Shown here: positions 6,711 to 9,731 of the stretch, in pieces | How the letters are laid out: the number at the start of each line of letters is the position of its first letter | Numbering within the stretch: the stretch's first letter is position 1 | Source of the DNA: an uncultured Succinivibrionaceae bacterium | GTDB lineage: Bacteria; Pseudomonadota; Gammaproteobacteria; Enterobacterales; Succinivibrionaceae | Direction: 5' to 3' | Assembly: GCA_944389835.1 (NCBI GenBank) | Contig: CALXNU010000013.1 | Coordinates: 1-40,273, forward strand | Length of the DNA stretch: 40,273 nt | The notes under the pieces: generated by a model | Told to the model about the DNA's origin: nothing | Database searches by the model: none | Seen by the model: the letters and a program-made list of their open reading frames with translations, nothing else | Made by a program: the position numbers and the translations under genes

Positions 6711-7996
6711 TGTCTGACTTAAAAGTACAGAATGCGTCTAATCTAAAGTGGTATCAGGCAATTTTTACTAGACGCATGGGCCTGTGCTTAGTCACAGGCT
6801 TTTCTTCAGGTTTACCTTTATATGTACTTTTAAGTTTATTATCGGCTTTTTTAAGAAAAGAGGGCTTAGATTTAAGGCTCATTGGTGTCTTATCTTTGAT
6901 TATGTTTCCATATACTTGGAAATTTCTCTGGGCTCCTTTTTTAGATCGCTATAGGATTTTAGGATTTTCAAGGCGCAAAGGCTGGATCATTCTGACCCAA
7001 ATTATTTTAATTTTAAGTATTGGCACTTTAGGTTTTTGTGAAGTTACAAGCTCTATACTTACTATTTCAATTTTAGCTTTAATTACCTCAGTAGCCTCTG
7101 CCACTCAAGATATAGCAATAGATGCACTAAGACGAGAGATCCTCCCTGATAATGAATTAGGTTTAGGAAATTCTTTGTTTGTTAATGCCTATCGCATCGC
7201 AAGTTTAGTGCCAGGGGGACTATCTTTGATTTTGGCAGATTTTCTGCCTTGGTCACAAGTTTTTATGTTAACGGCAGCCTGCTTAATTCCAGGGTTAATC
7301 CTAATCTTTTTTGTACATGAAAAAGAGGCTAATAAAGCACCTCGGACTTTAAAAGAAGCAGTAGTTGAGCCTTTTAATGAATTTATTCATCGCAATGGTT
7401 TAAAAGCAGCCTTACTTTGTGTAAGTTTTGTGTTCTTATACAAACTAGGTGACTCCATGGCCACTGCTTTGGCTACGCCTTTTTATCTTGATATGGGCTA
7501 TTCTTTAACCCAAATTGGCATTGTGGCTAAAAATGTAGGTTTATGGTCAATGGTCATAGGAGGACTGTTAGGTGGCATTTTGATGCTTAAAACTGGGATC
7601 AATAAAGCCTTATGGATTTTCGGTTTTGGGCAAATGATAACCATTTTAGGTTTTGTGCTTTTGGCCCATTTAGGGCAAAAAGGTCAGTCTTCAGTGATTA
7701 TGCTCGCTTTAGTAATCGGCGCTGAAGCTTTAGGCGCAGGCCTTGGTACGGCAGCTTTTGTCGCCTTTATTGCAAGGGAAACTTCACCTGCCTATACGGC
7801 AACACAATTTGCGCTTTTAACTTCTTTTTCAGCAGTGCCCCGAACTTTTTGCAATGCCGCAACCGGATTTTTGGTAGAAGGTCTAGGTTGGGAAAACTTT
7901 TTTATTTTATGTACGGCCTTAGCAATCCCTGGAATGCTTTTATTATTTAAGGTAGCTCCATTTTTTGCAGAAGAAAAGTCTCAAACTTCAAACTAA
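6710..7996 (+). CDS. ampG: AmpG-type muropeptide permease (MFS)
   Basis: AmpG imports GlcNAc-anhydro-MurNAc muropeptides across the inner membrane for cell-wall recycling. The 428-residue protein has about 12 hydrophobic segments. It shares with E. coli AmpG the patterns GFSSGLPLYV (residues about 30-40), KFLWAPFLDRY, RRKGWI, SATQDIAIDA, LYKLGDSMA, GILMLKTG and the late ATQFALLTSFSAVPR. E. coli AmpG (491 residues) has two further C-terminal helices that are missing here, which is common in the family. It overlaps the dxs stop by one base, so it belongs to the pheST-dxs run. A broader acetyl-CoA/permease-like MFS role cannot be excluded, but the motif match is strong. Confidence 0.85.
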   Translation: MSDLKVQNASNLKWYQAIFTRRMGLCLVTGFSSGLPLYVLLSLLSAFLRKEGLDLRLIGVLSLIMFPYTWKFLWAPFLDRYRILGFSRRKGWIILTQIILILSIGTLGFCEVTSSILTISILALITSVASATQDIAIDALRREILPDNELGLGNSLFVNAYRIASLVPGGLSLILADFLPWSQVFMLTAACLIPGLILIFFVHEKEANKAPRTLKEAVVEPFNEFIHRNGLKAALLCVSFVFLYKLGDSMATALATPFYLDMGYSLTQIGIVAKNVGLWSMVIGGLLGGILMLKTGINKALWIFGFGQMITILGFVLLAHLGQKGQSSVIMLALVIGAEALGAGLGTAAFVAFIARETSPAYTATQFALLTSFSAVPRTFCNAATGFLVEGLGWENFFILCTALAIPGMLLLFKVAPFFAEEKSQTSN

Positions 7997-8250
7997 AATT
8001 ATAGAAAAGATTGCTTATTTATTTATAAATCTACAAAAAATTTTTTAAATTTGCGCGCCTGATTGGCTTTTAAATAAAAAGTTTAAATTTTCTTCGTTTA
8101 AATTTTACGCAAACGTTTTAGATAAGACTTACTCTAGTATGAAATTTATGCGTAAAGGCTTGGTACGGCGTCATTTTGTGTTTCACGCTTATCGATCATC
8201 CTCACAATAATCTTTATTTTTGCCTTTGGAATTTGTGATAAAATTTGTCA
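7997..8250 (+). promoter_or_regulatory. nqr control region with LacI-type operator candidate and extended -10 promoter
   Basis: This gene-free stretch is AT-rich at its left, with GTTTAAATTTT present twice near 8090-8106. ACGCAAACGTTTTAGA (8107-8122) resembles the PurR/GalR/LacI-family operator, with an AAACGTTT palindrome. TTTACGCA (8104-8111) recurs inverted as TGCGTAAA (8149-8156), so two sites flank a TAGTAT (8135-8140). A clearer promoter lies downstream: an extended -10 TGATAAAAT (8236-8244) with a poor -35 in the T-rich 8213-8222 region; transcription would start near 8251. No terminator for ampG is obvious. Confidence 0.5.
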
Positions 8251-8381
8251 GTTGTAGCCTATCCTTGTTATTGAGGATGGTGTGCCCTAAGTTTATTAGT
8301 ACATAAAAATATGAGGGTGCTCCAAAAGGCCTGAGTTGTGGAGTTTATGTACCTCCAGAAGTTTTTAATTTGGAACCGCCT
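8251..8381 (+). ncRNA. Candidate structured 5' UTR / cis-regulatory RNA of nqrA
   Basis: The predicted leader of about 130 bases can form several helices. ATCCT (8261-8265) pairs with AGGAT (8274-8278). GTACATAAA (8299-8307) pairs perfectly with TTTATGTAC (8344-8352), and CTCCA (8320-8324) pairs with TGGAG (8339-8343) stacked directly inside it. Competing pairings exist: GTGCCCT (8282-8288) with AGGGTGC (8314-8320), and TGGAG with a second CTCCA at 8353-8357. Mutually exclusive helices just before a start codon are what a riboswitch or protein-binding leader would show. I recall that a candidate RNA motif has been described upstream of nqrA in Marinomonas; whether this is related I cannot tell. 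Confidence 0.45.
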
Positions 8382-9731
8382 ATGATTAACATCAAAAAAG
8401 GATTGGATCTGCCTTTAAGCGGACAACCGCAGCAGACCATTGGCGTCGGTCCCGAGGTAAAGCATGTAGCTTTAATTAGCTCAGATTACCCAGGGCTCCG
8501 TCCGTCTATGGCTGTTGAGGTCGGTTCGGTCGTTAAAAAAGGACAGATACTGTTCGAGGATAAGAAAAACCCTGGAACACGTTTCACCGCTCCTGCCGCT
8601 GGTAAAGTGGTTGCCATTAACCGTGGCGAGCGTCGTGCTTTCCAGTCTATCGTCATTGAAGTTGATCCGAAGGGAGCTTCAGTTGATTTTAAGAAGACTT
8701 CAGCTGATAAACTTCTTTCTCTTGCTTCAAAAGATGTCATTGACTTATTAGTTGAATCTGGAATGTGGACAGCTTTCCGTACTCGTCCATTTGACAAGGT
8801 CCCAGCAGTTGGCTCCTTGCCTCATTCCATCTTTGTAACCGCCATCGACACCAATCCTTTAGCTCCAGATCCTAAGGTGATTATTGGTGCTGAGGCCGAT
8901 GCTTTTGCAAATGGTCTTAAGGTTTTAAGTCGTATTGGTGAGTTCAAAGTTCACGTATGTAAGGACGCTGAATCCTTACCACGTTGCAGTGCTCCAAATG
9001 TAGATGAGCAAACCTTCGTAGGTCCTCATCCTGCAGGATTACCAGGCACTCACATTCACTTTGTAGACCCAGTAAATGAGAATAAGACTGTATGGCACAT
9101 CGGCTATCAAGATGTAATCGCTATCGGCCACCTCTTTACTGAAGGTAAGTACTATAACGAGCGCGTGATCTCAATTGCAGGTCCAAATGCTAAAGAGCCA
9201 CGTTTAGTTAAGACCTTACAAGGTGCTTCTGTAAGCGAGCTTACTCAAGGTGAGATTGTTGAGTCAGAAAATGGCGTGCGCGTTATTGCAGGCTCAGTAT
9301 TGTGGGGAAATACCGCTGTAGGTCCATATGCCTACTTAGGTCGTTACCACTTACAAGTCTCCATTATTGAAGAAGGCACTATGCACGAGTTCTTAGGCTG
9401 GTTAGCTCCAGGCTTTAAGCGTCACTCTGTATCTAATGCCTTTGCTTCTTCTTACTTCACTCCAGCAAGCTATACCATTAATACTGCTGTTAATGGTGGA
9501 TCTCGTCCAATGGTACCAATTGGGCTTTATGAGAAGGTAATGCCTCTTGATATTGAGCCTACCATGCTCTTGCGTGCTATTGAAATCAATGACGTCGATC
9601 AAGCAAAACTCTTAGGTGTCTTAGAGTTAGCTGAGGAAGATGTGGCTTTGTGCACCTATGTCTGCCCGGGTAAGACCGACTACGGTACTTTAATCCGCAG
9701 ATGTCTGACCAAGATTGAGGTGGAGGGCTAA
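8382..9731 (+). CDS. nqrA: Na+-translocating NADH:quinone reductase subunit A
   Basis: NqrA is the quinone-associated peripheral subunit of the six-part Na+-NQR complex, which couples NADH oxidation to sodium export at the inner membrane. The 449-residue protein starts [14 protein letters not shown], the family's typical N-terminus, which fixes the start at the ATG at 8382 rather than the in-frame TTG at 8370. The N-terminal barrel-sandwich (RnfC-like) region (about 30-100, GDVVKKGQ-like [14 protein letters not shown]) is recognisable, as is the KFLGWLAPG-like [19 protein letters not shown]. nqrB follows after four bases. A long structured leader lies upstream, suggesting control at RNA level for the whole operon. 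Confidence 0.96.

Follow-up and report, generated by a model that had tools for sequence, protein, structure and literature searches.

For many bacteria of the gut and the sea, the Na+-NQR pump is one of the main points at which energy enters; to our knowledge, control of this pump at the RNA level is essentially uncharted except for two orphan motifs. These two nqrA-associated motifs are described in the literature as nqrA, from Marinomonas, and nqrA-II (PMC11109978). The latter, which corresponds to RF04310 (PMC11701678), has 36 representatives in the Pasteurellaceae and is a strong riboswitch candidate (SRC-35-1) with an unproven ligand, while the Marinomonas nqrA motif is rare and is reported to have nothing in common with nqrA-II (PMC11109978). 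Na+ riboswitches, according to White et al. 2022 as cited in PMC11109978, regulate Na+ transport genes.

We analyzed a stretch of 40,273 nucleotides from an uncultured Succinivibrionaceae bacterium (hereafter, the window), in which a first-pass annotation had marked positions 8251-8381 as a candidate switch-like RNA ahead of nqrA. Like nqrA-II, this leader is a structured RNA directly upstream of nqrA; however, nqrA-II has four stems with conserved nucleotides, whereas the window leader gave no covariance-model match and no shared core sequence was seen. RF04310 found no match in the window at the gathering score and none up to an E value of 5 within 7997-8420, and no hit in the genome exceeded the cut-off, the best (19 bits) lying at another place; with an Avibacterium leader (L106), the same model reached E 0.001 but not the gathering score. 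The Marinomonas motif likewise lies upstream of nqrA, and no Rfam match of such a family was found in the window. Na+ riboswitches, too, sit on Na+ transport genes, whereas the window leader has no conserved aptamer-like core and was matched by no Rfam family, the Rfam 15 riboswitch models (FMN, Na+, Li+, and others) included. These searches, of a kind that the first-pass annotation had proposed, included nqrA-II, and they agree with its remark that no known riboswitch core could be recognized. As in translational expression platforms, where an anti-Shine-Dalgarno segment is contested by a mimic, the order GGAG-CUCC-(UU)GGA in the leader would permit mutually exclusive pairings, but switching of the leader is putative and no known sensor is attached to it. 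On these comparisons, we file it as a structured nqrA leader of unproven function that appears to be neither a member of nqrA-II nor a known riboswitch.

The nqr locus and its predicted promoter

The nqrA open reading frame (8382-9731, forward strand; protein matches in family genomes) starts with the ATG at 8382, reads ATG ATT AAC ATC AAA AAA GGA..., and is followed by the open reading frames of nqrB-F, up to 14267. A gap of 385 nt separates it from the end of the upstream gene at 7996. Among the Succinivibrionaceae genomes, 55 of 57 carry nqrA, with protein identities of 53-89%. The source genome belongs to the genus of Candidatus Avisuccinivibrio pullicola (L087; best nqrA segment 88% identical), and comparison within this genus comprises two species, the leader L033 being the sole same-genus relative of the window leader. 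A search for other copies of the leader found none. In Rfam, positions 1-74 match the 3' domain of a group II intron (48.7 bits), which the edge of the window truncates.

An extended -10 promoter element, TGATAAAAT, which matches the consensus at 8236-8244 on the forward strand, predicts a transcription start near 8251. An element of the form TGnTAAA(A/C)T lies 81-143 nt upstream of the nqrA ATG in nearly all Succinivibrionaceae leaders outside genera g2 and g14; in g2 leaders, no recognizable promoter was found at the equivalent place. The predicted start coincides with the beginning of the interval that had been marked, and the conserved putative promoter contradicts a start downstream of 8300, which the first-pass annotation had set against its own proposal.

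From the promoter to the ribosome-binding site, the sequence is hardly conserved, even inside one genus, and MAFFT misregisters the helix arms of nqrA leaders. Because MAFFT cannot register these sequences, we used alignment-free partner-swap tests in place of a standard R-scape result, comparing 23-32 Succinivibrionaceae leaders (33 leaders from 7 genera for the hairpin P3). The swap tests ignore phylogeny, such that kinship makes them conservative and differences in composition could inflate them; we therefore included shuffled-partner and pckA controls. Several of the fold results vary with the amount of coding sequence included.

Paired elements of the leader

Comparison across the leaders shows selection on predicted pairing for a 5' hairpin domain and P3, and on sequence for the ribosome-binding site and the first 11 codons. 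The 5' hairpin domain (8257-8330, forward strand), which shows strand covariation at the family level, takes a branched form by comparison with L033: P1 (8257-8260/8327-8330), P2 (8261-8265/8274-8278), and P2b (8282-8288/8314-8320). With codons included, the window probabilities of P1 and P2 are 0.004 and 0.15, and P2b, with 7 pairs including two G-U, reaches 0.88-0.96. P2b is the pairing of GTGCCCT with AGGGTGC that the first-pass annotation had pointed out, and it is borne out by L033, where CGTCCCTG/CAGGGATG forms in the structural register at a probability of 0.94-1.00 with three double changes relative to the window (G-C to C-G, U-G to G-U, and G-U to U-A). At the family level, a sliding scan of contacts along the leaders gave an anti-diagonal band, i.e., one extended hairpin.

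When the 26 nt at the 5' end of each leader were paired with the segment from -72 to -39 relative to the ATG, own partners averaged -14.6 kcal/mol vs -10.5 kcal/mol for segments from other genomes (z -7.3, 0 of 20000 permutations). Comparison with dinucleotide shuffles of the own segments likewise gave a z of -7.3. Controls with the same geometry gave z values of -2.4 upstream of the promoter and -0.2 upstream of pckA, and the effect held within g8 leaders alone (0 of 20000). The window is an exception in this test, as its own 5' duplex fails to beat swapped partners, and in its genus the support for the 5' domain comes from P2b. Across genera, the domain has no invariant sequence core in the Succinivibrionaceae leaders and is conserved as pairing only, which argues against a classical aptamer.

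As a separate observation, the 5' end of the leader (GTAGCC-ATCCTT, 8254-8266) is complementary to nqrA codons 6-11 (about 8397-8412), with 12 pairs in the window that also occur in L033 (z -1.9 and -3.9). With a mean z of -0.02 over the family, we rejected this pairing as a family feature; it is at most genus-specific.

The hairpin P3, TGGAG-(TTTATGTAC)-CTCCA (8339-8343/8353-8357, forward strand), lies ~25 nt before the ATG and, in the window, has an ensemble probability of up to 0.998. Its position is fixed in most of the 33 leaders from 7 genera, with the 3' arm ending ~19-29 nt before the ATG, although the arms are diverse (GGAGC/GCTCC, AGGGGA/TCCCCT, TCTTTGCAGA/TCTGCAAAGA, and ACGGGGGAG/CTTCCCTGT). 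Shuffled leaders form weaker hairpins than P3 (z 5.2), and the two arms of P3 show covariation (z -4.0, 4 of 20000 permutations). A UCC is kept in the 3' arm in 26 of the 33 leaders, and a clean P3 with UCC was not found in the other seven. In L033, its probability is 0.03, as a competing fold pairs the leader with early codons. P3 comprises the pairing of TGGAG with the second CTCCA, and this half of the switch proposed by the first-pass annotation is the conserved one. Covariation among relatives, which that annotation had suggested examining, was thus present for the leader as a whole in the alignment-free tests.

The 5' arm of P3 is a plausible Shine-Dalgarno mimic because GTGGAG serves as the Shine-Dalgarno of pckA in these family genomes. 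The pckA loci (L197-L217) themselves carry a near-invariant ribosome-binding site, GTGGAGAAAAAA-ATG, about 12 nt before the gene. Pairing of the 3' arm of P3 with the leader's own Shine-Dalgarno region beats swapped partners (z -4.0, from few variable positions). Predicted sequestration of the Shine-Dalgarno varies from leader to leader and involves different partners; therefore, no single OFF structure is conserved. Sequestration by 8320-8326, a strong prediction in the window only, was rejected accordingly, as relatives use different partners.

The other half of the proposed switch fared differently. All quoted segments are present in the sequence, i.e., the arms GTACATAAA/TTTATGTAC (8299-8307/8344-8352, forward strand; nine perfect pairs), GTGCCCT and AGGGTGC, the two copies of CTCCA (8320-8324 and 8353-8357), and TGGAG (8339-8343), which with the first CTCCA extends the 9-bp helix. 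In an ensemble that includes part of the coding sequence, this helix nevertheless has a probability of 0.00 when nested, and enforcing it costs ~7.4 kcal/mol; moreover, it is not present in L033, the sole same-genus relative examined. When the 131 nt are dinucleotide-shuffled, 1.6% of the shuffles contain an inverted repeat of at least 9 bp, as do 6.3% of the 131-nt segments across the window, and one is therefore expected in a 40-kb scan. Being at chance level, thermodynamically disfavored, and not conserved, the helix was rejected as the core of the leader, and we judge the pairing to be probably fortuitous. Its arms coincide with the apical loop of P2b (8299-8307) and the loop of P3 (8344-8352), a geometry that allows a kissing contact. 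Geometrically neat as it is, this contact was also rejected, since the P3 loop of L033, TTAGTAC, has no partner. A 12-codon open reading frame preceded by GGAG occupies 8347-8385, its TGA (8383-8385) overlapping the nqrA start codon; we rejected it, as its ATG at 8347 is missing in L033.

The nqrA start element and the function of the leader

The Shine-Dalgarno core of nqrA, TTGGAA (8370-8375, forward strand), lies 6 nt before the ATG, and its GGA is found in nearly all leaders. It opens a nearly invariant element for initiation, TTGGAACCGCCT-ATG with codons 2-11 (8370-8414, forward strand), which is marked by invariance of synonymous codons. Across six genera, the DNA from TTGGAACCGYCT through codon 11 is almost invariant: in 23 genomes from these 6 genera, the modal-codon fraction is 0.99 over codons 1-6 and 0.97 over codons 7-12, vs 0.63 for nqrA as a whole, with the GGA and TTG codons identical in 23 of 23. 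No rise at the start was seen for groEL (0.66 over the first 15 codons, 0.66 overall) or pckA (0.67 at the start, 0.72 overall); for nqrB, the 4 sequences were too few to serve as a control. At nqrA starts elsewhere, the fraction is 0.72 in the other Succinivibrionaceae branch and 0.74 in the Vibrionaceae. The 24-mer TTGGAACCGYCTATGATTAAYATC is present in 11 genomes, each of which has a single site (at most 3 mismatches), located at nqrA. Over -12 to +33, it is sequence rather than pairing that is conserved, and this is specific to nqrA.

Our favored reading, held with moderate confidence from these comparisons, is that 8251-8414 unites a structured 5' leader with the translation-initiation region of the nqr mRNA, in a form particular to one Succinivibrionaceae branch, and controls the initiation of nqrA. 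Most relatives in the family have leaders of this kind, which probably tune the amount of pump that is made. The leader would act on translation initiation of nqrA and, we infer, probably also on mRNA stability. Along the leader, the putative mimic would be followed by the anti-Shine-Dalgarno and the Shine-Dalgarno. With P3 closed, CUCC would pair with its own GGAG, the mimic, leaving the real UUGGAA free; with P3 open, CUCC could pair with the real Shine-Dalgarno, and translation would be lowered. A trans-acting partner would most likely contact the leader at the invariant start element. A conserved structured leader, a hairpin, and a constrained start are consistent with the earlier suggestion of a cis-regulatory RNA on nqr, whereas the specific switch helix (9 bp with CTCCA/TGGAG) is not supported.

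A constitutive leader, in which the 5' hairpin shields the mRNA from decay, P3 closes a mis-spaced, Shine-Dalgarno-like GGAG, and the start is fixed to give this major energy operon strong initiation, would have structure without switching, and we regard it as a possible though clearly less probable explanation. It would fit with a 5' domain that is kept in pairing rather than in sequence, without conservation of an aptamer-like core, and with GTGGAG being a working Shine-Dalgarno elsewhere in the Succinivibrionaceae. The synonymous invariance at the start of nqrA is harder to accommodate, as it is absent at the starts of groEL and pckA and plain efficiency rarely requires it.

As another explanation, the start element would be the target of a trans-acting sRNA or RNA-binding protein, of an Hfq-dependent or CsrA type, with the hairpins doing no more than presenting the element. 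The genome encodes Hfq and a CsrA-like protein that falls below the family cut-off, and such a partner is therefore possible; GGA motifs occur at the Shine-Dalgarno and at codon 7, within the nqrA-specific stretch conserved as sequence. No partner was found, however, and near-matches to TTGGAACCGCCTA in the genome were not commoner than those to the reversed pattern, which leaves this explanation slightly less probable than a constitutive leader and, on its own, rather unlikely.

Sensing of small molecules, including a Na+ or flavin riboswitch, is possible but unsupported. By analogy with nqrA and nqrA-II, themselves orphan candidates, a riboswitch for Na+, flavin, or another small ligand could be envisaged here, as the leader shares the genetic position of nqrA-II, a strong riboswitch candidate (PMC11109978), is structured and start-proximal, and has a P3 arrangement resembling an expression platform. 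Yet, the 5' domain has no conserved core across genera, no riboswitch family matches, the switching helix that had been proposed is not conserved, and we found no positive evidence for the response to sodium, flavin, or redox state that the first-pass annotation had envisaged, making this an improbable explanation. That the pairings are due to chance in an AT-rich intergenic region, with nothing functional, is highly improbable: the fold of the 131-nt leader (z -1.81; 7 of 200 shuffles equally good), the near-chance 9-bp repeat, and the weak P1 of the window would agree with it, but it is contradicted at the family level by controlled covariation and the invariance of the start region.

nqr leaders across lineages

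Other nqrA leaders showed features of their own. In the Vibrionaceae (Vibrio and Photobacterium; L158:1836-2003 and the other loci of alignment A4), the leader is a strongly conserved structured RNA, in which a closing stem, AGGATGTTGCG...CGCAA, and an inner hairpin whose positions show as many as four pair types are followed by GTCGTGTC and then AGTGCAAGTGCGT-ATG. It has no Rfam 15 match at the gathering score or up to an E value of 5, and it appears more aptamer-like than the Succinivibrionaceae leader. Zobellella/Oceanisphaera (L100, L105, and L107) and Rheinheimera/Alishewanella (L110, L122, and L160) each have their own conserved-looking leader, about 170 nt before nqrA, with no Rfam match among the loci tested. 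Just before the ATG, both carry AGTGCAAGT, which is common to the Vibrionaceae and, partly, the Pasteurellaceae.

It is conceivable, though we consider it doubtful, that regulatory RNAs linked to nqr include two further classes as yet unrecorded, one represented by the Succinivibrionaceae leaders and a strongly conserved one in the Vibrionaceae, and that gammaproteobacterial lineages evolved unrelated switches on the same pump that all respond to one signal, such as Na+, flavin, or quinone state. The leader described here brings the independent structured nqr leaders to three, and its start region is unusually invariant. Its promoter, 5' domain, P3, and start element provide defined sequences for asking whether, and by which signal, translation of the pump is regulated.
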